A stretch of 64,000 nt of DNA from Celeribacter baekdonensis. GTDB lineage: Bacteria; Pseudomonadota; Alphaproteobacteria; Rhodobacterales; Rhodobacteraceae. The position numbers and the translations under genes are program-made. Shown one piece after another: positions 39,157 through 54,963 of this stretch. Numbering within the stretch: position 1 is the first letter of the stretch; every line of letters begins with the position of its first letter. The notes under the pieces are model-generated. The model searched no databases. It was not told the DNA's origin and worked only from the letters and a program-made list of their open reading frames with translations. The stretch lies in assembly GCF_003047105.1 (NCBI RefSeq), contig NZ_CP028475.1, positions 2,418,001-2,482,000 on the forward strand. Reading direction: 5' to 3'.

Positions 39157-42100
39157 TTAAAGCAGACCGATGGGCCTCCTGAGGTCAAGCGTCAAGGGAA
39201 ATTCGGGATGCGGGACCTCTGTGACGGGGGTGTATGTGCCCGGCGCATGACCATAGGGTTCAAACCGCGCCAAACGCCGCGCTTCGGCCTCGTTGCCATT
39301 GACCGGGAAGGTGTCATAGCTGCGCCCGCCGGGGTGGGCAACGTGATAGGTACACCCGCCAAGCGCCCGACCCGTCCAATCATCATAGATGTCAAAGGTC
39401 AGCGGCGCATTGACTGGTAAGACCGGATGCAGCGCCTCCGGCGGTTGCCAAGCCTTGAACCGAACGCCGCCGACAGAGGTGCCGGAGGTGGCGGTGCGCG
39501 CCATCGGCACGGGACGTTGATTGCACATGATGCGGTAGCGATCTTGGTGCAGCGTGGTCATTTTGACCTGAAGCCGCTCGACCGAACTGTCGGTGTAGCG
39601 CACGGTGCCGCCAATCGCGCCAGTTTCACCCAACACATGCCATGGCTCAAGCGCCTGACGGATTTCCAAGTGGACGCCCTCGGCCTCAATCTGACCACAA
39701 AACGGAAAGCGGAACTCGGCCTGTGCAACATACCAGTCCGGGTCCAATTCGAACCCGTGCAGTTTGAGATCCGCCAAAAGCGATAAAAGGTCTTCCCACA
39801 AGAAATGCGGCAACATGAACCGATCATGCAGCACCGTGCCCCACCGCACCGGCTTGCCCTCAACCGGGGCGTTCCAACAGCGCGCAATGATCGCCCGCAG
39901 CAACACCTGTTGGGCAAGGCTCATGCGTGGATGCGGCGGCATTTCAAAGCCACGGAACTCGACCAAGCCAAGCCGCCCGGTGGGACCATCGGGGGAAAAC
40001 AATTTGTCGATGCAAATCTCGGCGCGGTGAGTGTTGCCGGTCACATCGGTCAACATATTGCGCAACAAACGATCCACCAACCACGCGGGCGGCACAGCGC
40101 CTTCGGTTGGAGGCGTGATCTGCGATAGGGCGATTTCAAGCTCATAGAGCGTGTCGTGCCGCGCTTCGTCCATGCGTGGGGCTTGCGAGGTTGGGCCGAT
40201 GAACAGCCCGGAGAACAGATAAGACAGCGCCGGGTGACGTTGCCAGATCAGGATCAGCGACTTGAGCAAATCCGGGCGGCGCAGAAACGGCGAATCCGCA
40301 GGTGTCGCCCCGCCGACAACAACGTGGTTGCCGCCGCCGGTGCCGGTATGACGCCCGTCGATCATGAATTTATCCGCGCCCAGACGCGACAGACGCGCCT
40401 CTGCATAGATCGCCTCCGTGGTGGCCACGCAATCGTCCCAACTGTGCGCCGGGTGAATGTTGACCTCGATCACGCCGGGATCGGGAGCAACCCGGATCAC
40501 GTTGAGACGCGGGTCTTCGGGCGGGGAATAGCCTTCGACATGGATCGGCAGGCCAAGCTCCTCGGCGGTGTCTTCGGCGGCGGCCAACAGCTCAAGGTAA
40601 TCTTCGAGCGCCTCACAGGGCGGCATGAACAGGCACAACCGACCGTCGCGCGGCTCAATCGCAATCGCGGTGCGCACTTCGCTTGTGGAGGGATCAATGC
40701 CCTGCGCGATCAAAGCCTGGCGTTCGGCCTCTGACGCTTTGGCTTGGCTCACAGGCTGGCTGTGGCCCACGGATTCCTCGGGCAAAAGATCAGCTTTTTC
40801 CTTGGCTTCCTGTGCCGCACGCGCCTCTTCCTCGGCGGCCAGTCGAGCGATTTCCGCCTCAACACCCTTACGCCGTTCGGACAGCTTTTCGTGGAAATCC
40901 GGCAATGGCCCGTGATCAATCATCGGGTCAGACGGATAGGAATAGGGGAAGTTCGCCGGCGGGATATGCGGCAAAGCCCCCAACGGCAGGCGGAAGCCCA
41001 CAGGGCTATCACCGGGCACCAAAAACAAATGCCCGCGCCGGGTTTGCCACAGTTCCGAAATCCAATTCGACCCGGCTTTTGATTGCCATCTCTGGATCGG
41101 CAAGACGTACCCCGACGGCTCGGTTAACCCGCGTTCAAACACCCGCGCGTATCGGGCGCGGTCTTCGGGATTCTTCAGCTTGCTGTTCTCTGGATTCACG
41201 TTCGGCGGCAACAGGGATTCTTTCAAAATCCACTCCGCCGGGTCCTCAAAAGCGGGCTGAGCATTGACCGGATCGACCCCGAGGTTCTCTGCGAATTTCT
41301 TCATAAACGCCCCGGCCTCAGTGGCCCCCGCGGGCACAGGCACGTCTTCTTTGGCGATCAGGTCCGGGTTTTTCCAAACCGGTTTGCCATCGCGCCGCCA
41401 ATAGAGCGAAAAGGTCCAACGTGGCAGGCTTTCACCCGGATACCATTTGCCCTGACCATAGTGCAGGAACCCACCCGGCGCGAACCGGGTTTGCAACCGC
41501 CGGATCAATTCATCCGCCAAGGCACGCTTTTGCGGCCCCACGGCCTCGGTGTTCCATTCTTCGCTTTCAAAATCATCAATCGACACAAAGGTCGGCTCGC
41601 CGCCCATGGTCAGGCGCACGTCGCCCTCCTCCAGAGCTTTGTCAACCTTATGCCCCAGCGCGTTGAGCCGATCCCATGCGTCATCGGAAAAGGGTTTGGT
41701 GATGCGCGGGTGTTCAGAGACGCGTTTGATCTCCATCTGGAAATCAAAGCTGACCTCAGGCGCACCGACCGACGTATAGCCACCCGAAATCGGCGCGGCG
41801 TTGCGGTAATGTGGGGTAGCGGCCAGCGGGATATGGCTTTCGCCGGTCAAAAGACCGGAGGTCGGATCGAGCCCAATCCAGCCCGCGCCAGGGATAAACA
41901 CCTCGCACCAAGCATGAAGATCGGTAAAATCATGATCGGTGCCAGACGGACCATCCAACGCCTCAACATCGGGTTTGAGCTGAATAAGATAGCCGGAGAC
42001 AAAGCGCGCCGCCAAACCCAAATGGCGCAACACCTGCACCAACAACCAACTGGAATCGCGACACGAACCGGAGCGTTTTTCAAGCGTCTCCTCGGGGTCT

Positions 42101-42599
42101 GCACCCCCGCTTCCATCCGAATGGTGTAGTTCACGAAATTGGCGATCTGGGCGTTGAGACCGACCAAAAAATCCACGGTCCGCATCTTTTTAAGATCCAG
42201 CGTGCCGATAAATTGCGCCAAAAGCGGGCCTTCGGGGTCCGGCGTGCGGTAGATCACAAGATCGTCTTTCAGGTCCGCCGGATACTCAAACGGCCATTCT
42301 TCGGCCTCTTCTTCGATGAAGAAATCGAACGGGTTATAGACGGTCATATCGGCGACAAGATCGACCTCGATTTTGAATTCCCGCACGGGTTCGGGGAAAA
42401 CAAACCGGGTTTGCCAATTGCCATAGGGATCTTGTTGGCGATTGACGAAATGGTTGGCGGGCGAAACTTTGAGCGAATGCGAAATCACCCGCGTACGCGA
42501 ATGCGGCGCCGGACGCAGGCGGATGATTTGCGGACCCAGCTCGACATTGCGGTCATATTTATAATGGGTGACGTGATGGATGGATGCGTAAATCGCCAT
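39157..42599 (-). CDS. transglutaminase / DUF2126 protein, split by a frameshift
   Basis: The first part, from 42599, has a transglutaminase-like N-terminal domain and runs in frame to [14 protein letters not shown]. The continuation [20 protein letters not shown] is in another frame, with the catalytic Cys (about residue 180), then [23 protein letters not shown], a linker and the long DUF2126 region to 39157. The break is in four G at 42094-42097 (C on the coding strand). Adding one base gives an intact protein of 1147 residues. An internal ATG at 42045 lies after the Cys, so neither fragment alone would have a complete active site. It leads the three-gene set. Confidence 0.88.
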
Positions 42600-45166: not shown

Positions 45167-45478
45167 TTATTCCGGCGCCAGTTCAACCGTCAGCCCGTCA
45201 AGCTCGTCGTTAAAGGGGATCTGACAGGACAACCGGGAATTGTCGCGCAACCCGTCGGTCAAATCGAGCATATCCACCTCCGTGTCACTTTGCGCTTTCA
45301 GATGAGACAGCCATGTTTCTTCGACATAGACATGGCATGTCGCACAGGAGGCCGCGCCCCCACATTGGGCTTCGATCGCTAGCCCGGCATCGCGGATGAT
45401 TTCCATGATCGACAGGCCAGAAGATGCATCGAGGTGATGTATGTGGCCGTCGCGATCTTTCACATGAATAAGCGCCAT
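45167..45478 (-). CDS. [2Fe-2S] ferredoxin (adrenodoxin/putidaredoxin-like)
   Basis: The 103-residue protein has four cluster cysteines: Cys39, Cys45, Cys48 (CGGAASCATC) and Cys85, in the spacing of vertebrate-type ferredoxins that feed P450s. The start at 45478 gives the standard N-terminus MALIHVKDRDG. It is the last gene of the nine-gene operon headed by a cytochrome P450, so it is the likely electron donor for that enzyme. No dedicated ferredoxin reductase gene is present, so a reductase from elsewhere must serve. Confidence 0.93.
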   Translation of the reverse strand: MALIHVKDRDGHIHHLDASSGLSIMEIIRDAGLAIEAQCGGAASCATCHVYVEETWLSHLKAQSDTEVDMLDLTDGLRDNSRLSCQIPFNDELDGLTVELAPE

Positions 45479-45512
45479 TTGGTGGTTCCTTTGACTTGGT
45501 ATTGGATGGGGA

Positions 45513-46190
45513 TCACGAGGGACCTCGTGTCCGAAAGACCCGCGCAAAATCTGCGGCAATGCCATCACAGTTCAGATCCGCTGTGAGATCAGGCAGTGCG
45601 GCATCCACAAGAGATGCTGGCACCGGATTGCCCCGCCACGCGGTCAGAAAGGCGTCGAAATACGGGGCGGTGAATTCAGGGTGGTATTGAACCGAGAGAG
45701 CAGGAAACGCATAGTCGATGCGCCCAATCGGACAACGTGCACTGCCAGACACCGACTTGGCGCTGTCTGGCGCGGTCAAAACTTGGTCTTGATGGACGGC
45801 AAAGGCGGATTTGCCCGCATAGGTCTCTTTGCCAACAACCCAGCCCTGATCAGATTTTCGAACCGTTGCGCCAAACGTGTCGGCTATGATTTGATGACCA
45901 AAGCAAACGCCACCGAACGGCAGACCGATGTCGCGTGCTTGACGCAGGAAATGTTGCAAATCTTCCTTCCACGCAATCGCGTCATAAACACCGTACCGGC
46001 ACCCCGACAGCAGATAGCCATCATAGTCCGTCAGGCCCGGAAGACGCCCCGTTTGATCCAGCTTGATCCGCGAAAATTGAGCCTCCGGGAGCGTTGGAGA
46101 CAGCCAGTTTTCGAACATGTCCCCATAATCCCCAAAGTCAGAAACATGTGGGTCAGACGGGCTGTCGAGTTCAAGAATACAGAGCTTCAT
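45513..46190 (-). CDS. class-I glutamine amidotransferase-type hydrolase
   Basis: The protein of 225 residues has the triad of GATase1 domains: Cys96 in GGVCFGHQ, His170 and Glu172 in QYHPEF. It is a free-standing domain. In amine pathways that use gamma-glutamyl intermediates, similar free GATases (PuuD, and AtdA2 of aniline degradation) hydrolyse the gamma-glutamyl amide. With two glutamine-synthetase-like ligases in the same operon, a gamma-glutamyl hydrolase role is the best inference. The start at 46190 (MKLCILELDSPSDPH) is chosen over one 33 bp earlier because it matches the domain start. Confidence 0.85.
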   Translation of the reverse strand: MKLCILELDSPSDPHVSDFGDYGDMFENWLSPTLPEAQFSRIKLDQTGRLPGLTDYDGYLLSGCRYGVYDAIAWKEDLQHFLRQARDIGLPFGGVCFGHQIIADTFGATVRKSDQGWVVGKETYAGKSAFAVHQDQVLTAPDSAKSVSGSARCPIGRIDYAFPALSVQYHPEFTAPYFDAFLTAWRGNPVPASLVDAALPDLTADLNCDGIAADFARVFRTRGPS

Positions 46191-46285
46191 GAGGTCAAAC
46201 CGCCAAACTGGCGTGCCGCCCATCTGTGCACCCCGGCTCTTTGTGTCCGGCAGAAAATCTTAGCGATGTGAAACATGGGAAGGTC

Positions 46286-47113
46286 CTATTTGCGACGCGC
46301 CGTCGTGTCGCGCAGGGTGATGACCGCAGAGGCAATAATCAGAATGAGCGACATGAGAACGATCAATGAGCCGATCGCGTTGATTTCAGGCGTCACCCCG
46401 CGCCGCATGGTCGAGTAGATGTACATCGGCAACGTGTTGTCGCGCCCGGTTAGGAAAAAGGTGACGGGAATTTCATCAAAGGACAGCACGAAAGAGAGGG
46501 TGCCAGCCCCGATGATGGCCGTTTTGATGTTGGGAAGCGTGACGTAGATAAAGGTCTGAAAGGCCCCCGCCCCCAGATCTGAAGAGGCCTCACTGAGAGA
46601 TTTTGGGACTCGCTGTAAGCGGGCAAAAATTTGGGTCACGACGACGGCCAAAAGCGCCGTTGCATGGCCCAAAATAACGGTCTCAAGGCTGAGGTGAAAG
46701 CCAAACAGACGAAAGGCGTTCAACATCGAAATCCCGGTGACAATGCCCGGCAAGGCGATCGGCAACAACAGCAAGCGCCGGAAAATCGTTTTGCCCGGAA
46801 AGCTATATTTATGCAGGGCCAGCGCCGCAGGTATCCCAACCACAAGTGTCAGAACAGTCGAGCACAACGCCACATAAACACTGTTGCCCAATGCGGCCAA
46901 AAGCGCCTCGTTGGCAAACAAGGTTTCGTACCAATGGGTCGTGAAACCGCTAAGTGGCCACGTCAAAGATCGCGAGTCGTTGAAGCTGAAAATAATCAGC
47001 ACCCAAATTGGGATATAGAGAAAGGCCATCAGCAGACAGACGAATGTCATAAAGGCACTGTCGGCCGCCAAACGTTTCACCCTCAGGGCTGTTTTTGAAT
47101 GTGTCGCGCGCAT
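46286..47113 (-). CDS. ABC importer permease, PotC type
   Basis: The protein of 275 residues has six membrane helices and the permease coupling motif EASSDLGAGAFQTFIYVTLPNI (EAA loop). It begins after an N-terminal MRATHSKTALRVKRLA. It matches the second permease of spermidine/putrescine-type importers. The start at 47113 lies 2 bp after the PotB-type stop. It works with the PotB-type permease, the ATPase and the binding protein of this operon. Confidence 0.92.
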   Translation of the reverse strand: MRATHSKTALRVKRLAADSAFMTFVCLLMAFLYIPIWVLIIFSFNDSRSLTWPLSGFTTHWYETLFANEALLAALGNSVYVALCSTVLTLVVGIPAALALHKYSFPGKTIFRRLLLLPIALPGIVTGISMLNAFRLFGFHLSLETVILGHATALLAVVVTQIFARLQRVPKSLSEASSDLGAGAFQTFIYVTLPNIKTAIIGAGTLSFVLSFDEIPVTFFLTGRDNTLPMYIYSTMRRGVTPEINAIGSLIVLMSLILIIASAVITLRDTTARRK

Positions 47114-47115
47114 GT

Positions 47116-47982
47116 TCAGGCCTCCACCTTGCCTTTTTGCTCGACCCAGTCGCCCAGCGAGATGATTGTCAAAACGATGAACAGCATCACCACGGCCAAG
47201 GCCGATCCAAGGGGCCAATTCAGGGCCGCGCCAAACTGTGATGCGATGACATTCGCCACCATCTGTCCGTCAGGTCCGCCCACAAGAAACGGTGCGATAA
47301 AATCCCCGAAGCTCAGACAAAAGGTCATGGTGAACCCCGCCACGACCCCCGGCAAAGACAGGGGGAACGTCACCCTGAAAAAGGTGGCCCAAGCGCCCAT
47401 ACCAAGATCGGCCGACGCTTCGGTCAGGTTGTGCGGGATCTTCTCCAGCGCGGTGTAGATCGGCATCACCATAAAGGGGATGAAAATATAGGTCAGCGTC
47501 ACCACCATTGCCGATTGGCTATAGAGCAGGAAGGACAGCGGCTCTGCAATCATCCCTGTGTTGATCAGAAATGAATTCAGAATGCCCTCCGTGCCCAAAA
47601 TGGTTTTCCAAACATAGGCGCGCAGCAAATAAGACACCCAAAGCGGCGCAATGACGCCCAAAAACAGAACCGTGCGCCAAGTATGATTGTGCAGTCGGAA
47701 CACCAAAAAATAGGCGAAAGGATAGGCCAAAAGAAGAGAGGCCAAGGAGGTCAACGCCGCAATTTTCAACGTGCGCAACAGCACCCGGATATATTGCGGA
47801 TCTTCAATCAGGGTCAAATAATTGCCAAACTGAAACGCCGGTTCAAACAGAGGGTATTTTTTGATCCAAAAACTGTAGGTGAGAAGCCCCGTATAGGGGA
47901 TCAACATGAACAGAATGATCCATAGGATTGGAATGCCAAGCACCAAGTGCCCCGACATCCGGGTAAGGCTGCGTGGTGCCAT
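47116..47982 (-). CDS. ABC importer permease, PotB type
   Basis: The 288-residue protein has six membrane helices and the EAA loop EASADLGMGAWATFFRVTFPLS. The stretch LRAYVWKTILGTEGILNSFL is characteristic of PotB/PotH-like subunits. It is separated by 2 bp from both neighbouring genes, the ATPase upstream and the second permease downstream, so expression is tightly coupled. Confidence 0.92.
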   Translation of the reverse strand: MAPRSLTRMSGHLVLGIPILWIILFMLIPYTGLLTYSFWIKKYPLFEPAFQFGNYLTLIEDPQYIRVLLRTLKIAALTSLASLLLAYPFAYFLVFRLHNHTWRTVLFLGVIAPLWVSYLLRAYVWKTILGTEGILNSFLINTGMIAEPLSFLLYSQSAMVVTLTYIFIPFMVMPIYTALEKIPHNLTEASADLGMGAWATFFRVTFPLSLPGVVAGFTMTFCLSFGDFIAPFLVGGPDGQMVANVIASQFGAALNWPLGSALAVVMLFIVLTIISLGDWVEQKGKVEA

Positions 47983-47984
47983 GG

Positions 47985-49076
47985 TCAGCTTTCCTTTTCA
48001 AAGACAGAGATGGCTTCGGCGTCGATCCCAAGGCGGACCGTTGCGCCGAGCGCAGGTGTCGTGGAGCGCGCCATCCCACTGGGCAGAAGCGCATCCACCA
48101 AAACCTCCTGACCACCGTCCAGACGCACAAGACTGCGCAACCCAAGCCCGTAATAGATGTGCTCCGCCACAGTCCCGGTCAAAACATTGCCCGCACCGCT
48201 GTCGCTGTTGAACAAGAACCGCAGCTTTTCGGGGCGCAGCCCGATTTGTATGGGCCGGGCCAGCAATGCCGCGTCAAACTTTGCGACAGTCAACGTTTGA
48301 CCAGAGGCCTCGACCACCGCCTGTCCGTCAGACTGAGAGACCAGTTTGGCGGGCAGGAAATTGGTCGTCCCGATAAAATTCGCCACATAGGAGGACATTG
48401 GGTTTTCATACAAATCCTGTGGTGTGCCGTCCTGAGCAACCACACCTTTCTGCATCACCACAACGCGATCAGACATCACCAGGGCTTCGGTTTGATCGTG
48501 TGTCACCATGATGAAAGTGATGCCAATTTTGTCGTGCAGATGTTTCAACTCAACTTGCATCTGTTCGCGCAGATTGGCGTCCAAAGCCGACAGGGGTTCG
48601 TCGAGCAAAAGCACTTTGGGGTGGCGCACAATCGCCCGTGCCAAAGCGATACGTTGTTGTTGCCCGCCAGAGAGTTGATTGGGGCGTTGATCAATTTTAT
48701 CCGGCAACCCAACAAGATCCAAAGCCTCCAACGCCATCCGGCGCGCGTCGGCTTTGCCAATGCCTTTCATCTTTAGGCCATACATTATGTTCTGACCCAC
48801 GGACATGTGCGGAAACAGGGCGTAATCTTGGAACATCATGTTCACGTCGCGCTTTTGCGGCGGCATGTAAGTGACGTCCTGACCCGAGAGTTTGATCAGA
48901 CCCGAGGTCGGCGTTTCAAACCCGCCAATCATACGCAACAGTGTCGATTTCCCACACCCGGACGGGCCCAACAATGTGAGAAACTCCCCGTCCTGAACTT
49001 TAAGGTCAACGTGGTCAACACCGACCACCGTCCCGTAGTGCTTGCTGATATTGCTGAGTTCTATAACTGGTGGCAT
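47985..49076 (-). CDS. ABC importer ATPase, PotA type
   Basis: The protein of 363 residues has Walker A GPSGCGKST (37-45), the signature [15 protein letters not shown], Walker B VLLLDEPLSALD, and a C-terminal TOBE domain (residues 280-360) typical of polyamine and sugar importers. It energises the PotB/PotC-type permease pair in the inner membrane. Confidence 0.95.
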   Translation of the reverse strand: MPPVIELSNISKHYGTVVGVDHVDLKVQDGEFLTLLGPSGCGKSTLLRMIGGFETPTSGLIKLSGQDVTYMPPQKRDVNMMFQDYALFPHMSVGQNIMYGLKMKGIGKADARRMALEALDLVGLPDKIDQRPNQLSGGQQQRIALARAIVRHPKVLLLDEPLSALDANLREQMQVELKHLHDKIGITFIMVTHDQTEALVMSDRVVVMQKGVVAQDGTPQDLYENPMSSYVANFIGTTNFLPAKLVSQSDGQAVVEASGQTLTVAKFDAALLARPIQIGLRPEKLRFLFNSDSGAGNVLTGTVAEHIYYGLGLRSLVRLDGGQEVLVDALLPSGMARSTTPALGATVRLGIDAEAISVFEKES

Positions 49077-49143
49077 CTTTTTCGCTCGCAGGAGTTATGA
49101 GACCTCGCACCAACACAGGGTGCGAGGATCAATGTTTCATTTG

Positions 49144-50181
49144 TCACTGCGACTTCACAGAGTTCCAGGCGTTCGTGTACGCTTCGAGACGCTCACCGAG
49201 TGGAGCCCAAAGCAAAAGGCTATCCAAGTAATCCGGGTCATCTTGGTGCAACATTGCGTATTGCTCGGGCGGCATACATGCTATGGCCGCAACCGGGTTT
49301 GACACGGAATATCCATTCACATTGGCCACGCCACATTGTCCGTCTTCTGACAGCAACATATTCAACAGCTTATAAGCGCAGTCCGTATTGGGCGTGTCTT
49401 TCACCAACATCCAGCTGTCCATCCAGCCTTCCGCCCCTTCGGTGGGAATAAACTCTGTCACCTGGACGTCCTGTTCCGCCAAGAGGTTGGATTGATAACC
49501 GCCCCATGTGTTTGACACCCACACTTCACCCCCGGCATACAAATCGACCAACTCGCCCGCTGTGGCCCAATATTTGCGGACAAGGGGCTTCAATTCGACC
49601 AAAAGCTCTACGGCCTCGGCCAACTGAGCGTCGGAAAGATTGTAGATGTCCATGTCGCCATTCATACGCGCCGCGACATAGAGCGAAGATTTATCATCCC
49701 AGAGCGAAATTTTGCCCGACAAATCCGCTGCAAACACATCGCGCAGCGACATGGGCGGCGTGTCAAATTTGTCGGTGCGATACATGAACGGGATCGACCC
49801 CCACGTGTAAGGCATCCCGTAATAGGCGCCATCGCGTTGAATGCCGTCCAGCTTAAGGAATTTTTCGTAGATATTGGCCCATTCGGTGATTTTGCTGGTG
49901 TCGAGAGGGTCAACGAACCCCGCATCAATCATCAAAGAGGTTGTGTCGATAGAGGGGGTGATCAGGTCATAAATACCGCCCCCCGCCGCCAGTTTGGGCG
50001 CAAAATCGTCATTTGACCCAACATAGGTTGCATTCACTTTACAACTGCTGGTGGCTTCGAAATCCTTGATGAAACTGTCATCGGCATAGCCTTCCCATGT
50101 CAGGACATTCACTTCACCCGCCAAGGTGGCCGCCGGGGTCGCCGCTATCAAGACAGCGGTCATCATGTGCTTAATCTTCAT
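49144..50181 (-). CDS. periplasmic polyamine-type substrate-binding protein (PotD/PotF-like)
   Basis: The 345-residue protein has a signal peptide (residues 1-21, ending TLA) and the PotD-family opening VNVLTWEGYADDSFIKDFEA. Later hallmarks are YGMPYTWGSIPFMYRTDKF, the AGEVWVSNTW-like AGGEVWVSNTW segment and MDSWMLVKDTPN. The aromatic and acidic pattern suits a cationic amine ligand. It sits between the ligase genes and the transporter genes, so transport and metabolism of one substrate are probably linked. The exact ligand is unknown. Confidence 0.92.
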   Translation of the reverse strand: MKIKHMMTAVLIAATPAATLAGEVNVLTWEGYADDSFIKDFEATSSCKVNATYVGSNDDFAPKLAAGGGIYDLITPSIDTTSLMIDAGFVDPLDTSKITEWANIYEKFLKLDGIQRDGAYYGMPYTWGSIPFMYRTDKFDTPPMSLRDVFAADLSGKISLWDDKSSLYVAARMNGDMDIYNLSDAQLAEAVELLVELKPLVRKYWATAGELVDLYAGGEVWVSNTWGGYQSNLLAEQDVQVTEFIPTEGAEGWMDSWMLVKDTPNTDCAYKLLNMLLSEDGQCGVANVNGYSVSNPVAAIACMPPEQYAMLHQDDPDYLDSLLLWAPLGERLEAYTNAWNSVKSQ

Positions 50182-50273
50182 TTTTTACTTCCCTGTTGGT
50201 TTTTTTCGATGCGCAATCTGGGGAGGAGGCGCGGCAGGTCGCACCGGTTTTGGTCCCTGCCGCTTTGGAAGAC

Positions 50274-51755
50274 TTAGGGAACGCAATGCAGGTAGCGTTC
50301 CACATCCCAATTGGTGACCTCGCGCAGGAAACGGGTCCATTCATCGCGTTTGTATTCATCATACAGGTCGTAAAGCCCGCCCGGCATCGCGCTTTTGACA
50401 ACCTCATCCGCCTTCAGGGCTTCCAAGGCATCATGCAAATTCAGCGGGATCAGTTTCACGTCGCCGCCGTCTTGCCAGACCGTGGTCACGTTGCGGCTCT
50501 CCGGTTGACCCGGGTCGATTTTATGATCAATCCCGTCCTGCATCGCTTTCAGCAAAGCGCAGCAGAACAAATGCGGGTTGACCATGCTGTCCACGGCACG
50601 GAATTCAAACCGATCCGGCGACGAAATACGAATGGTGCAACTGCGGTTTTGTAGTCCCCAATTGGCCCCGATCGGTGCCCAAAGACCGAAATCGTTGAAC
50701 CGGCGATACGAGTTCACCGTGGACGCCCCGATGGCGGTCAGCGCATCAATATGCTTGAGCGCCCCGCCCAACAGATGATGCCCCAGTTCGGTCGGCAACC
50801 AGCCGCCGTCAGTGTTTTCGAACTCGTTCACTCCGCCCTTGGAGTACATCCAGTTCTCTTCCATGCCGGGCAATTCGCCGTCGACAAGATGCTGAACTTC
50901 GCGTGTGCTGCCGGTCCAAACCGAACAGTTGTGGTGGCACCCATTTGCCGCATAGCCCATGAAAGGTTTGGCCATAAAACATGCGATCAACCCGTGTTGA
51001 CGCGCCACCTCGGCACAAATCTGACGATAGGTCGTCATCCGATCACAGGTGGCCAGCGCATCATCAAATTGATAGTTCAACTCGACCTGACCGGGCGCAT
51101 CTTCACAATCGCCTTGAATCATATCCAAGCCCATCGCCAAGGCGTAATCCGAGACCTGTTTCCAGATATCGCGGGCAATTTCGAATTGACCGATGTGATA
51201 GGCATAGGCCTTGGTGATCCCCTCATAGGGTTGCACCTCGCCCTCCTTTGGTTTCAACCAAAGCATCTCCGGTTCCAACCCAACACGCAGGGTCAAGCCG
51301 TTGTTCTTTTCTTGAAATTCCTTTTGGAACCGCTTCAGGTTGCCACGCGTGTCATATTCGTAATAGCAACCCGGTTTTTCCAGATCTTCAAGGCTGTAAT
51401 ACAGCGTGCAAAACACCCGAGCGATGCGTTTGTCCCATGGCAGTTGCACGAATGTGTCCGGGTCCGGCAAGGCGATACATTCCATCGCATTGGCATCAAA
51501 GCCAATCAAATCTCCCTTGAAATTCGGGGTCACATCAGCAACCCCACCCATCCAAGTTTGCACCCCTTTTCGCGCTTGCGTTTCCCAATGACGCGCCGGG
51601 GCGGCCTTGCCCATGACACGCCCTGTGATCGAAATATATTGGTAGTAGATGTAGTCCACCCCAAGGTCGTCGATTTTCTTGCGCACCCGTTTGACCAATT
51701 CATCGCGCTGTGCGTCAGCGACATCCCGGTGATAGTCCGTTTGTGTACCAACCAT
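50274..51755 (-). CDS. glutamine-synthetase-family ligase 1 (gamma-glutamylamide synthetase-like)
   Basis: The protein of 493 residues has the GS fold: an N-terminal beta-grasp part (VDYIYYQYISITGRVMG), metal ligands Glu161 and Glu163 (GLEPEM), Glu218 and Glu225 (GDCEDAPGQVELNY), the ATP-site His of ANGCHHNCSVW and NSYRRFNDFGLWAPIGANW. Members of this kind join glutamate to amines other than ammonia. The start at 51755 (MVGTQTDYHRDV) is more likely than 51797, whose extra residues are Lys/Asn-rich and follow a T tract. It is adjacent to a second, diverged GS-like gene. Confidence 0.9.
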   Translation of the reverse strand: MVGTQTDYHRDVADAQRDELVKRVRKKIDDLGVDYIYYQYISITGRVMGKAAPARHWETQARKGVQTWMGGVADVTPNFKGDLIGFDANAMECIALPDPDTFVQLPWDKRIARVFCTLYYSLEDLEKPGCYYEYDTRGNLKRFQKEFQEKNNGLTLRVGLEPEMLWLKPKEGEVQPYEGITKAYAYHIGQFEIARDIWKQVSDYALAMGLDMIQGDCEDAPGQVELNYQFDDALATCDRMTTYRQICAEVARQHGLIACFMAKPFMGYAANGCHHNCSVWTGSTREVQHLVDGELPGMEENWMYSKGGVNEFENTDGGWLPTELGHHLLGGALKHIDALTAIGASTVNSYRRFNDFGLWAPIGANWGLQNRSCTIRISSPDRFEFRAVDSMVNPHLFCCALLKAMQDGIDHKIDPGQPESRNVTTVWQDGGDVKLIPLNLHDALEALKADEVVKSAMPGGLYDLYDEYKRDEWTRFLREVTNWDVERYLHCVP

Positions 51756-51812
51756 GGTAAGTTCCCTGTTTTTTTGATTTTTTGATTTTGATTTCAACTT
51801 TTGCCCAACGTA

Positions 51813-53135
51813 TCAGGCCTCAAGATATCGACGCCGTTCCTCATCCGGCACAGATTTTCGAAGAGCTGAATCTTCAGCCTTACAAGCCAACGCGAAATTG
51901 TCCACGAAAGCGTCGCCAAACAAACGGCGACCGTTTTCACTGTGCTCAAGCCGACTTGCCGCCTCGTACAGATCGCGTGGGAAGCGAGCGCATCCCGCAG
52001 GCACATCGTCTGGACCACCCGCCTGAGTGGCAGGGCGATGGGGGAGATCGCGCTCAATCCCATCAAGACCTGCGGCCAGCATCAGGGCCATGGTCAGATA
52101 GGTGTTGCAATCCGCCGGAGGAGACCGGAATTCAAGCCGGGCATGCTCCCCAGCCGATGGAACCGACCGGACGGATGTGGTGAACGTATAGTCCTGCCAA
52201 GTCACCGCTTTGGGGGCCCAACTTCCGGGGGCCAACCGTCGGTATGCATTGACCGAACTGGTACAGAGCGCATAGCACTCAGGGACGACTTCCATCATTC
52301 CGGCAATAAATGTCTGTGCCAACGGGCTGGTTGTCCCGTCAGGGGCAGAGAATTTGTTTTCTCCACTTACCTTGTCATGCAACGACACCGAAAGATGCCC
52401 GCCCAAACCCGGGTAGCCCGCTCCCAAAAAGGGCATAAAACTGGCCGTCAAACCCTTGCGACGCGCAAACGACCGCACTGCCAGACGCAGAAACGCTGCA
52501 TCATCAGCCGCTTTTAATCCGAACTCTGCCCCCAATGTCGTTTCCAAACACCCTGGACCCAACTCGACCCCAAGGCCAAACAGATTGACGCCATAGCCCA
52601 AGATTTCGGCCTCCATGTCAGCAATCAGAGCTGCATGGGTCGCCGCCGTAGTGCCTGACCAGCATTTGTTGTCCGGGGCAAATGGTTTGAGATGTCGAAA
52701 CCCGCTGTCTCGCACCGAAAGATCCGTTTCATCCAGTAGGATCACTTCGAATTCAAAAGCCCCTTTGACCAAATATCCCATGGCTTCGGCCCGCTCCAAC
52801 TGACGGCGCAAAACCTGACGCGGCATCAGCTCCTTTGCCTCCCCTTCCATCTCCGCGATGATCGCAACCGCACCGGGTTCGGCGGGGTAAGGGCGCAGAC
52901 TTGAGAGGTCGATGGCCTGTGGGGCCGTGCCATAGGTCGTTCCGGCAAACAGATCATCACCGCTGTCCCAATAGGCCAATGTATTGGAAAACCGCGGATC
53001 TTCGGCCCACTCCAAAAACTGATCCTTGCGCAGGCGACGTTCGCGGAAAATCGAGGCGGTGTCGAATTGCCCAACATGGACAACCTCGGCCTGATGTTCG
53101 TCCAACTTGGCTTTCAATGCTGAGAGATCACGCAT
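51813..53135 (-). CDS. glutamine-synthetase-family ligase 2
   Basis: The 440-residue protein is clearly of the GS family but differs strongly from its neighbour. The N-terminal part is short (FDTASIFRERRL), metal ligands appear as Glu128 and Glu130 (GAFEFEV) and Glu191 and Glu198 (ELGPGCLETT), followed by GLGGHLSVSLHD and NAYRRLAPGSWAP. The late ARLEFRSPPADCNTYLTMALML is conserved. All main ligands are present, so it is probably active. It starts 1 bp after the P450 gene stop. Two different GS-like ligases in one operon suggest two acylation steps or two amine substrates. Confidence 0.9.
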   Translation of the reverse strand: MRDLSALKAKLDEHQAEVVHVGQFDTASIFRERRLRKDQFLEWAEDPRFSNTLAYWDSGDDLFAGTTYGTAPQAIDLSSLRPYPAEPGAVAIIAEMEGEAKELMPRQVLRRQLERAEAMGYLVKGAFEFEVILLDETDLSVRDSGFRHLKPFAPDNKCWSGTTAATHAALIADMEAEILGYGVNLFGLGVELGPGCLETTLGAEFGLKAADDAAFLRLAVRSFARRKGLTASFMPFLGAGYPGLGGHLSVSLHDKVSGENKFSAPDGTTSPLAQTFIAGMMEVVPECYALCTSSVNAYRRLAPGSWAPKAVTWQDYTFTTSVRSVPSAGEHARLEFRSPPADCNTYLTMALMLAAGLDGIERDLPHRPATQAGGPDDVPAGCARFPRDLYEAASRLEHSENGRRLFGDAFVDNFALACKAEDSALRKSVPDEERRRYLEA

Positions 53136-53136
53136 G

Positions 53137-54327
53137 TCAAAGCGCCTTGTCGAACGCGATTGGCAGGCTCAGCGGGCCGGTATTGCCACTGTCGGGCAAC
53201 CATTCGGCAGCCCCATTCAGTCGCGGATTTAACAGCCGTTGTGACAGCAGTTTCAGCGCCTCGGTCATGTCACCGCGTGCAATGGGAGAACCAATGCAAT
53301 GGTGCTTGCCTCCGCCAAATCCGAAATGCGGCTTGCGCGTTTTGGTAATGTCGAACCCGTCTTCGAAATGCTCGGGATCCGTGCTTGCGGCGGCAGAGAA
53401 CAAATGCACAGTCGTCCCCTTTTCGATCCGCAAGCCCCGATACTCGAAATCTTCGGCCGCTTCGCGTGTCACCCATGTCGTCGTGGGGCGGGTGCGCATC
53501 ACCTCTTCGACCGCCGCGCGGCCCAAATCGGGGTTTTGACCCAAAAGCGCCCATTGATCCGGGTGCTCCAAAAAGCTGCTCATAGCCAAACCGATCTGGT
53601 TGCGCGTGGTGTCAACACCGCCAAAGATCGTCAAAACGATCATATCATACAGCTCTTGTTCTGAGAGTTGCCCGCCGACGCCACTTGCAGCAATCAAATT
53701 GCCAACAAAATCATCACGCGGCGCCGCGCGGCGCTCCTCAACCAACGCCTTCGCATAATTTATCAACTTGGTGGCCGCAGCATCCACGCGGGCTTCGTCA
53801 CGTTTATAATTCACCCCCAGCGCATACCCCATCTCCACGGCCAAATCCGCGAATTCTCGCCAATTTTCATCGGAGAGGCCGACCAGTTGACAGATCACGC
53901 GAGTCGCATATGGCTCCGCGAAATCGGCCATAAATTCGCATTCTCCGCGCGCCTCAAACTTTGAGATCAATTCGTCCGCCAAGGCTTGGAAGCTGGGCAA
54001 TAAGGATTTTACCAGTTTGGGCGCAAAGGCGGGCTGACCGAGACGGCGAAGACGCGTGTGATCCTCGCCTTCCTTGTTGAGCATAATCCGCTTCCACCAC
54101 TGCGCCCAGACACCGTGGGTGTCGTTGTGATCTGGCCACTTATAGGACCCCTGCCGCAAAGATGGGCTCATCACCAATTCCTTAACGGCATCATAGCGCA
54201 GGGCGGCAATGCCGTAAGGCGTGTAGGCAAACCAGCTTTTGGCACGCGCATCGGCCACTTCCTGCGACCGCATGGAGAAACCTGGTTTCGAAATGTCGAG
54301 GCGTGGAGCGTCCATGATATCGTTCAT
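53137..54327 (-). CDS. cytochrome P450
   Basis: The 396-residue soluble P450 has the I-helix oxygen-activation motif GGVDT (236-240), the K-helix ExxR (Glu275, Arg278) and the haem loop FGFGGGKHHCIG with Cys344 as thiolate ligand. No membrane anchor is present, as in bacterial class I systems that use a ferredoxin. The start at 54327 (MNDIMDAPRLDISK) is preceded by GATCATAGCAC rather than a strong ribosome site, but longer starts look unnatural. It is the first gene of the operon and is divergent from the Lrp-type regulator. It may hydroxylate or dealkylate the amine substrate, an inference from context. Confidence 0.93.
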   Translation of the reverse strand: MNDIMDAPRLDISKPGFSMRSQEVADARAKSWFAYTPYGIAALRYDAVKELVMSPSLRQGSYKWPDHNDTHGVWAQWWKRIMLNKEGEDHTRLRRLGQPAFAPKLVKSLLPSFQALADELISKFEARGECEFMADFAEPYATRVICQLVGLSDENWREFADLAVEMGYALGVNYKRDEARVDAAATKLINYAKALVEERRAAPRDDFVGNLIAASGVGGQLSEQELYDMIVLTIFGGVDTTRNQIGLAMSSFLEHPDQWALLGQNPDLGRAAVEEVMRTRPTTTWVTREAAEDFEYRGLRIEKGTTVHLFSAAASTDPEHFEDGFDITKTRKPHFGFGGGKHHCIGSPIARGDMTEALKLLSQRLLNPRLNGAAEWLPDSGNTGPLSLPIAFDKAL

Positions 54328-54462
54328 TGTGCTATGATCTCGTTTTTGGTTCGGCGAAGTCAGGAGATGTCTGTGCAAACTTCGGCAATTCTCTGGACTC
54401 AAATGTTGCATTGATACATAATTCGTCGCAACCGAATGAATTTCGATGATTGGGCGAAGGTT
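54328..54462. promoter_or_regulatory. divergent promoter region of the P450 operon and Lrp gene
   Basis: This 135-bp region must hold both promoters. It contains the short inverted repeat ATTCG (54421-54425) and CGAAT (54433-54437) with a 7-bp spacer, which is a candidate site for the Lrp/AsnC protein. No stronger motif is visible. Confidence 0.4.
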
Positions 54463-54963
54463 ATGGAATTAGACCGTACAGACTACCAGATTATGGACCT
54501 TTTGCAGAATGATGCTCGTTTGATGAACAAACAAATCGCTGCCGAAGTGGGATTGGCTGCGTCATCTTGCCACGAGCGGATCAAACGATTGTGGGCGGCG
54601 GGCGTTTTAAAGGAGACCAAGACCATCGTTGAGCCCAGTATGCTTGGGTATGAGCTCTCCATTGTGGTGATGGCAAAAATCTCCAAGCATGGCCAAATCA
54701 ACATTGATGCTTTGATGGATCGGTTGATTGCCCTGCCCGAAATTCAACAGGTGCATCTGGTGACAGGGCAGTTCGATCTGATCGTCTACATGATCGCCAA
54801 AAATATGAACCACCTCAAAGAGGTCGCCCGTGCCGCGTTCAGCGATACGGAAGATATTTCAGCCTACGAAACCTCAATCACCTTTGACTCTCGCACAGAT
54901 TTTGGCGTGCCGTTGCGGCCCGATGAAACGTCAAATCGCGGGGCGACCCAAAGGGGTGTGTGA
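54463..54963 (+). CDS. Lrp/AsnC-family transcriptional regulator
   Basis: The protein of 166 residues has the N-terminal helix-turn-helix (LMNKQIAAEVGLAASSCHERIKRLWAAGVL) and the C-terminal RAM ligand-sensing domain (IQQVHLVTGQFDLIVYMIAKN). I chose the ATG at 54463 because GAAGG lies just before it and the family usually begins ELDRTDYQIM; a start at 54436 would add nine residues. It is divergent from the P450/GS/transport operon and is its probable regulator, sensing the amine or an amino acid product. Confidence 0.9.
   Translation: MELDRTDYQIMDLLQNDARLMNKQIAAEVGLAASSCHERIKRLWAAGVLKETKTIVEPSMLGYELSIVVMAKISKHGQINIDALMDRLIALPEIQQVHLVTGQFDLIVYMIAKNMNHLKEVARAAFSDTEDISAYETSITFDSRTDFGVPLRPDETSNRGATQRGV

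Follow-up and report, generated by a model that had tools for sequence, protein, structure and literature searches.

A conserved cytochrome P450-glutamine synthetase operon of Celeribacter baekdonensis, a candidate secondary-amine catabolic system

The stretch of Celeribacter baekdonensis DNA analysed here (contig NZ_CP028475.1, positions 2,418,001 to 2,482,000, 64,000 nucleotides; hereafter the window) lies within contig 4 of a 4.44-Mb genome that holds several further glutamine synthetase (GS)-type genes. On its minus strand, at 45167-54327, it carries an operon coding for a cytochrome P450, two GS-type ligases (GS2 and GS1), a PotDABC-type importer, a class-I amidotransferase and a [2Fe-2S] ferredoxin. 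The nine genes form a genuine unit. With a probability of roughly 0.68 we read it as a secondary-amine catabolic operon that works through gamma-glutamyl chemistry, whatever the order of the steps. The substrate would most likely be either a cyclic amine resembling pyrrolidine, piperidine, morpholine or piperazine, or a small N-alkylated amine. No published description of this gene set was found in the literature searched, which covers few subscription papers; the logic of the pathway is already known from the Ipu, Puu and mor/pip systems, and the P450-GS module itself is a new variation on it.

Organisation of the operon

A preliminary description of this DNA had placed here nine genes on one strand with gaps of mostly 1-70 bp, divergent from an Lrp/AsnC gene, and all ten genes proved to be open reading frames at those places. 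The intergenic gaps along the operon are 1, 57, 92, 67, 2, 2, 95 and 34 bp, and the Lrp gene lies on the plus strand. Gene starts were adjusted by comparison with relatives. The features, in window coordinates, are:

54463-54963, plus strand: Lrp/AsnC-type regulator, divergent from the operon, start refined from 54436; PF13404/PF01037
54433-54445, unstranded: palindromic operator-like element CGAATKAAWTTCG, between the P450 and Lrp genes
53137-54327, minus strand: cytochrome P450, 396 amino acids (aa), Cys344, proposed secondary-amine monooxygenase; PF00067
51813-53135, minus strand: GS2, GS-type ligase of 440 aa, distinct subfamily, Phe at the R339 position; PF00120
50274-51755, minus strand: GS1, GS-type ligase of 493 aa, gamma-glutamyl amine ligase type; PF00120
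49144-50181, minus strand: putative periplasmic amine-binding protein, PotD/YdcS type; PF13416
47985-49076, minus strand: PotA-type importer ATPase; TIGR01187 above cut-off (376.6 against 355.6 bits)
47116-47982, minus strand: PotB-type permease; PF00528, best NCBIfam model PotB, under cut-off
46286-47113, minus strand: PotC-type permease; PF00528, best NCBIfam model PotC, under cut-off
45513-46190, minus strand: class-I glutamine amidotransferase, proposed gamma-glutamyl amide hydrolase; PF00117
45167-45478, minus strand: [2Fe-2S] ferredoxin, 103 aa, proposed P450 electron donor; PF00111

The protein assignments made earlier from the translations were borne out. The P450 with Cys344 is supported by the Pfam match and the refined reading frame, the Cys-His-Glu of the amidotransferase is found in the motifs GVCFGHQ and QYHPEF, and the P450-type ferredoxin has its four cysteines at 39, 45, 48 and 85, its best NCBIfam model being the ISC-type [2Fe-2S] model, under the cut-off.

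Conservation of the gene order and of the palindrome

All genome counts come from drawn samples and not from complete collections. In the samples of the window's order, Rhodobacterales, the same seven genomes carried the P450 (at least 60% identity; 390 genomes sampled) and GS2 (380 sampled). The class-level sample contained GS2 in two of 385 genomes, the window's own and G552, both of which also carry the P450.

A search for the same gene order in other genomes, as the preliminary description had advised, returned it in loci L010, L011, L013 and L087. These and the window (architecture A) share the identical order Lrp, P450, GS2, GS1, binding protein, PotA, PotB, PotC and amidotransferase, which indicates that the operon is more than a chance grouping. 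The ferredoxin gene follows the amidotransferase in the window, L010 and L087, the relatives in the latter two being 65% identical to it; it was not found in L011, and L013, whose contig ends a few hundred bases on, showed none either. Since a 10,247-bp block covering the whole operon is 99.4% identical between L010 (Roseovarius) and L087 (a Ruegeria plasmid), the operon has moved as a block.

Lrp relatives of 50-52% identity adjoin the same P450 in L010, L011, L013, L014, L016 and L087. An exact copy of the element CGAATKAAWTTCG lies in the P450-Lrp gap of the window and of each of these loci other than L016, in which an exact-match search did not return it. The pattern was derived by eye from the same sequences that were later scored, and it occurs in only 10 of 158 loci, namely L010, L011, L013, L014 and L087 with their duplicates L041, L042, L056, L075 and L077. 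Its conservation suggests that Lrp acts from a shared operator region. One TGA was present within the P450 match in each of two genomes, G115 and G024.

Relatives of the P450 and their association with GS genes

The window P450 is 56.5% identical to a Mycolicibacterium smegmatis P450 (P0269), itself 90% identical to the P450 of actinobacterial locus L150, and 56-57% identical to the P450 of Gordonia plasmid pGKT2; membership of one CYP family goes with about 40% identity or more.

A tree of 69 P450s was built with stops inside match stretches entered as X; matches shorter than 330 residues (L033-L037) were excluded together with L039 and L040, and the near-copies L156-L158, L057 and L060 were dropped. 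Two labels were set by hand before counting, L016 as cut (its contig ends 1,056 bases on) and L064 as broken GS. The method is a quick one and the branches are long, leaving the fine branching unsure. All 36 rows whose P450 has a GS gene no more than 8 kb away fell into one group of 50 rows (SH-aLRT 93), the rest of which comprised seven rows without GS, three cut by contig ends, one with a broken GS and three Mycolicibacterium proteins without context; none of the 19 rows outside the group had a GS gene. The GS label changes 8 times on the tree against 22.0 in shuffles, none of 500 shuffles being as low. As to whether P450, ligases and amidotransferase always occur together, which the preliminary description had asked, P450 and GS2 share seven genomes, and seven P450s of the tree group (L015, L148 and L065-L069) have no GS nearby. 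More distant P450s were found at L089 and L153-L155 (46-47% identity), with an APC permease and no GS adjoining the P450, and at L156-L158 (40-41%), loci in which no GS match was found.

Active-site residues of the two ligases

Both ligases had been described as having intact metal ligands, and all six (E129, E131, E212, E220, H269 and E357 in what we take to be the Salmonella GS numbering) were found in GS1 and in GS2. Among the 120 GS2 sequences listed of 813 matches, one being the window's own protein, the six ligands and R321, R344 and R359 were kept in 120/120 and E327 was replaced by Trp in 120/120, while the R339 position held Phe in 115 and His in 5, so that the arginine expected of a working ligase is missing. 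The metal ligands were likewise present in all 37 GS1 sequences, with E327 replaced by Trp in 14 and by Phe in 23. Both proteins keep the metal and glutamate residues of an organic-amide ligase and have lost the ammonium-site residues, a combination that fits amine ligases rather than ammonia ligases; a report on NpaA1 and other GoaS enzymes makes the same residue argument (PMC11335346). Ammonium assimilation by GS1 or GS2 was considered and is disfavoured by the loss of these residues.

The TIGR03105 (type III) model scored GS1 at 298 and GS2 at 156 bits against a cut-off of 469.6, and the gamma-glutamylputrescine synthetase model gave 203 and 137 bits against 650. Because both lie below the curated cut-offs, neither protein was filed as GMAS or PuuA. 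The GS1 kind of ligase is present in each P450-GS architecture, and GS2 adjoins GS1 in all the full type-A, type-B and type-C operons read. A GS2 relative (57%) also occurs in L084 (8622-11233) beside a DAO-family FAD oxidoreductase gene, without P450 and without GS1; the genome concerned, G115, holds a type-B operon as well.

Importer and amidotransferase

The four importer genes had been taken for a polyamine importer. The PotDABC type stood, and the binding protein, aligned with 33 of 120 listed relatives and L018, has the PotD/PotF fold; the polyamine specificity was not upheld in full, for the acids that we take to form the polyamine site of PotF are incomplete. A Ser takes the place of E185 and D247 aligns to a gap (the PotF chain aligned being a variant with S247), leaving a single acid, D255, aligned to PotF D278, together with aromatic residues.

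The solved structure nearest to the amidotransferase by sequence is gamma-glutamyl peptidase 1 (E 1.4e-9). An amidotransferase match was found in 24 of 25 loci searched, with GxCFGHQ in 24/24 and QYHPE or QFHPE in 22/24, the latter motif not being found in L071 and L073. The window protein matches PF00117 and not PF07722, the PuuD/Peptidase_C26 family; its counterparts in L150, Paracoccus sp. TOH and R. opacus match PF07722.

Sister architectures

Pseudomonas, Rhizobium, Paracoccus and actinobacteria also carry related P450-GS sets. Type B (L070-L074) runs P450, 61-aa ferredoxin, FAD reductase, GS2, GS1, PAS protein and sigma-54 regulator, followed by binding protein, PotA, PotB and PotC; an aldehyde dehydrogenase was present in 4/5 and an amidotransferase in 5/5. 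The aldehyde dehydrogenase of L070, the sole one tested, has PuuC as its best model (560 against 850 bits). L085 (G552) and L188 (G1330) hold a type-B-like set as far as the 20 kb read reaches. In type C the partner of the P450 is a CPR-type reductase; Rhizobium alvei (L018) has the two fused, Paracoccus sp. TOH (L088) encodes the reductase by a gene of its own. The type adds GS2, GS1, aldehyde dehydrogenase, amidotransferase, and PAS and sigma-54 regulators.

The type-D P450 was found in 16 of 198 sampled Pseudomonadaceae genomes, in all 16 with an FNR-type reductase, a flavodoxin and a GS; an amidotransferase gene follows the flavodoxin in 15 of them, and a second one lies on the opposite strand in 16/16. 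Sampled actinobacterial genomes gave a P450 match in 12 of 351. In L147 and L150-L152 the P450 is accompanied by ferredoxin, FAD reductase and GS, by a gene for a family-3 solute-binding protein and by PuuD-type matches; L149 is similar without the redox pair, and L148 has the P450 without GS. Gene families were tested in L150 only, where the neighbours of the P450 are a GntR/FCD regulator, ferredoxin, FAD reductase, GS and a PuuD-type hydrolase. Type E combines a GS1 relative and a P450 (49-50%) with an ammonium transporter, trimethylamine monooxygenase (Tmm) and trimethylamine N-oxide (TMAO) demethylase (Tdm), the last two being above their curated cut-offs in L062. Across all these architectures P450 and GS form the constant core, around which four kinds of redox partner are exchanged.

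In L147, L149-L152 and the Pseudomonas loci L017, L132-L142, L144 and L145 a gene for a cache-domain protein lies near an FCD regulator gene, and the GS is followed by one for a family-3 solute-binding protein; the two proteins are possibly amine-sensing partners. In L064 and L186 the GS and some neighbours are split into several frame pieces and the P450 stays open.

Substrate leads and the methylamine loci

Three leads point to secondary amines, namely the identity to the M. smegmatis P450 that we take to be PipA, the homologous set of Paracoccus sp. TOH, and P450-GS pairs among methylamine genes in genomes without DmmA. One report describes piperidine as inducing PipA and reconstituted MorA as oxidising morpholine, and the GS genes that it names in Gulosibacter carry locus numbers adjoining those of PipA- and MorA-like P450s (PMC9477822). 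Paracoccus sp. TOH is a piperazine degrader according to the title of a paper in a reference list. Its plasmid p2 encodes a P450, GS2 and GS1 that are 60%, 59% and 67% identical to the window proteins, in a cluster with a reductase gene, amidotransferase and aldehyde dehydrogenases; the literature searched on piperazine showed no gene cluster for this strain.

Five loci of genus g28 (L062, L063, L183, L184 and L185) hold the ammonium transporter, GS, P450, trimethylamine monooxygenase and TMAO demethylase together. In genomes G066 and G361 the P450 lies about 15-16 kb from a GmaS-type ligase; both are without DmmA and have no more than a far paralogue of DmmD. The step left without its enzyme seems to be the oxidation of dimethylamine, a secondary amine. 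PF11927 matched a far paralogue (22-27% identity where aligned) in all 9 genomes with any match, of 10 searched; since it does not by itself mark DmmD, DmmA was scored as well. Among 20 genomes of g28 the E-type P450 (86-100% identity) occurs in 8 and DmmA in 3; seven of the eight P450 genomes lack DmmA and G1335 has both (Fisher p = 1.0). The GS of G1335 (L186) lies in three frame pieces, which account for only part of its length, and G159 has a broken GS and no DmmA. Six genomes have an unbroken GS and P450 without DmmA, and 11 without such a pair also lack DmmA. The P450-for-DmmA pattern is suggestive, not significant. G1320 has GS and P450, and the 20 kb read there gave no match to Tmm or Tdm. 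L171 contains, in the same cluster, a gene with FAD-oxidase and GcvT parts, presumably dimethylglycine dehydrogenase-like, which could provide an alternative route for dimethylamine. It becomes testable whether a P450 can act as dimethylamine monooxygenase in trimethylamine breakdown.

The window's own genome carries, at L173 (C4:2706001-2726000), a GmaS-type ligase, an ammonium transporter, a DmmA above its cut-off and a DmmD-like gene; with these genes present, dimethylamine is disfavoured as the substrate of the window operon.

Proposed pathway and alternative explanations

From the gene content, conservation, motifs and co-occurrence observed, we infer the substrate class, the step order and the roles of GS2, Lrp and the palindrome as follows. 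The PotD-type ABC importer would take up the amine cation. With electrons supplied through the ferredoxin and a reductase whose gene lies elsewhere, the P450 would by analogy with related P450s hydroxylate the carbon adjoining the nitrogen, and the carbinolamine would open or split to a primary amine bearing an aldehyde, or to amine plus aldehyde. GS1, given its active-site residues, would spend ATP to link the amine to glutamate through the gamma-carboxyl, and GS2 would perhaps do so for a second nitrogen or a second product. Glutamylation would prevent renewed ring closure of the amino-aldehyde, in the manner of the Puu pathway. An aldehyde dehydrogenase, in or beside many sister operons and not in the window operon, would yield the acid, the amidotransferase would remove glutamate to leave an amino acid, and Lrp would regulate the operon from the shared operator region. 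As to the order of the two central steps, we lean slightly towards the P450 acting first, with the ligase-first order nearly as probable.

Several points weigh against this interpretation. The operon contains neither a reductase gene nor an aldehyde dehydrogenase gene. The activity of GS2 is doubtful because the residue aligned to R339 is lost. That the M. smegmatis P450 is PipA, and that CYP151 is the family of the PipA and MorA P450s, are assumptions. The tree-group P450s without a nearby GS count on the same side. A link between the p2 cluster and piperazine degradation by Paracoccus sp. TOH can be offered as a lead only, and the Fisher value means that there is no statistical exclusion between P450 and DmmA in g28.

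The preliminary description, in which the imported amine is glutamylated, then oxidised or dealkylated, then released, is partly supported as a whole, and its order of ligase before P450 is retained as a rival account that we regard as less likely. There the ligase would form a gamma-glutamyl amide, the P450 would hydroxylate the amide and the amidotransferase would release the product, so that dimethylamine would give gamma-glutamylmethylamide directly and a cyclic amine a gamma-glutamyl amino-aldehyde. The tight pairing of GS and P450, seen even in G066 and G361 with their separate GmaS, speaks for it. So does the Ipu system, whose ligase, P450 and amidotransferase-type hydrolase set a precedent, unfavourable to the P450-first order, for a P450 acting after glutamylation (PMC6776027), as well as aromatic amines such as 1-naphthylamine, which are tagged before oxidation (PMC11335346). 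On the other hand, MorA with ferredoxin and reductase is stated to oxidise free morpholine (PMC9477822), which tells against the rival if MorA belongs to the same clade, and no GS enzyme that couples secondary amines is known to us.

In a polyamine or diamine pathway, a putrescine- or spermidine-like compound would be imported and glutamylated by one or both ligases, with the P450 replacing the PuuB oxidase. The PotD-type importer, the PuuC- and PuuD-like partners in sister operons and the GS2 relative beside the FAD oxidoreductase in L084 favour this account; it is made improbable by the binding protein, which keeps only D255 and aromatic residues, and by other Puu-like GS settings in the same genome, judged by eye. 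These are a GS beside an oxidase-like reading frame (L005/L009, C4:1124697-1126000) and a GS beside an amidotransferase-like one (L002); the argument is weakened because the L005 GS match is split over two frames near its end. Plain putrescine use was set aside on the binding-site residues and these other GS genes. Biosynthesis, with the P450 tailoring a gamma-glutamyl-protected amine in a natural product, would agree with the nearest solved P450 structure, 3p3l (which we take to be the natural-product P450 AurH), and with P450s of about 40% identity in Nocardia and Micromonospora that sit outside GS clusters, but it is very improbable given that the operons read contain no core biosynthetic gene, that importer, aldehyde dehydrogenase and hydrolase suit degradation, and that the set occurs on plasmids and in a piperazine degrader.

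Other features of the window

At 39157-42599 on the minus strand two overlapping reading frames, one with an N-terminal part matching PF08379 and the other with a part matching Transglut_core and DUF2126, look like one transglutaminase-like/DUF2126 protein broken by a frame change, either real or a sequencing error.

Comparison with known systems

The secondary-amine reading places the operon among several known systems. The isopropylamine (Ipu) system of Pseudomonas KIE171 and Arthrobacter aurescens TC1 likewise combines a GS-type ligase, a P450 with ferredoxin and reductase, and an amidotransferase-type hydrolase, and the window too groups its GS-type ligases with a P450, a redox partner and an amidotransferase. 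Ipu, compared by description only, differs in its permease uptake and its primary-amine substrate, and the part of the description available mentions no PotDABC importer, second ligase or Lrp (PMC6776027).

The pip/mor systems (PipA, MorA) share the row of P450, small ferredoxin, FAD reductase and GS with L147 and L150-L152, and with type B, in which GS2 stands before GS1. Their P450 would be of the same clade as that of the window if the M. smegmatis protein is, as we assume, PipA. The window differs in its second ligase, importer and amidotransferase, and in having a [2Fe-2S] ferredoxin and no reductase. Puu (PuuA, PuuC, PuuD) resembles the operon in its gamma-glutamyl ligase and amidotransferase-fold hydrolase, and in the aldehyde dehydrogenase of sister operons, but the operon has a P450 in place of the flavin oxidase PuuB and its ligases score far under the gamma-glutamylputrescine synthetase cut-off. 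The pathway step of the dimethylamine monooxygenase DmmDABC is possibly that of the P450-GS pair in L062, L063 and L183-L185, although the protein families are unrelated and the window's own genome has DmmA.

On plasmid pGKT2 (L086, 12007-17499) the genes for RDX degradation are embedded in a P450-GS operon with the order FCD regulator, cache protein, P450, GS fused to XplB, and XplA; the names XplA and XplB are our assumption, the record giving P450 and FAD-dependent oxidoreductase. Compared with the P450-GS operon of Pseudomonas jinjuensis the identities are 57% for the P450, 59% for GS, 45% for the reductase XplB and 53% for the XplA flavodoxin, and only 26-27% for XplA's own P450 domain. 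The xplA/xplB cluster differs in acting on the explosive RDX. On the simplest reading, the redox partners of the RDX system would derive from an amine operon of the P450-GS kind. More broadly, and tentatively, P450-GS may be a general, horizontally moving secondary-amine module, which in g28 would have replaced DmmDABC, ligase and P450 jointly converting dimethylamine to gamma-glutamylmethylamide, and from which XplA/XplB would have drawn flavodoxin, reductase and fused GS. The identity of the imported amine and the origin of the XplA/XplB redox partners thereby become testable questions. The operon offers the window's bacterial group a candidate route for using secondary amines as nitrogen and carbon source, and it links amine systems that have been described separately, those for isopropylamine, morpholine and piperidine, putrescine, and the methylamines.

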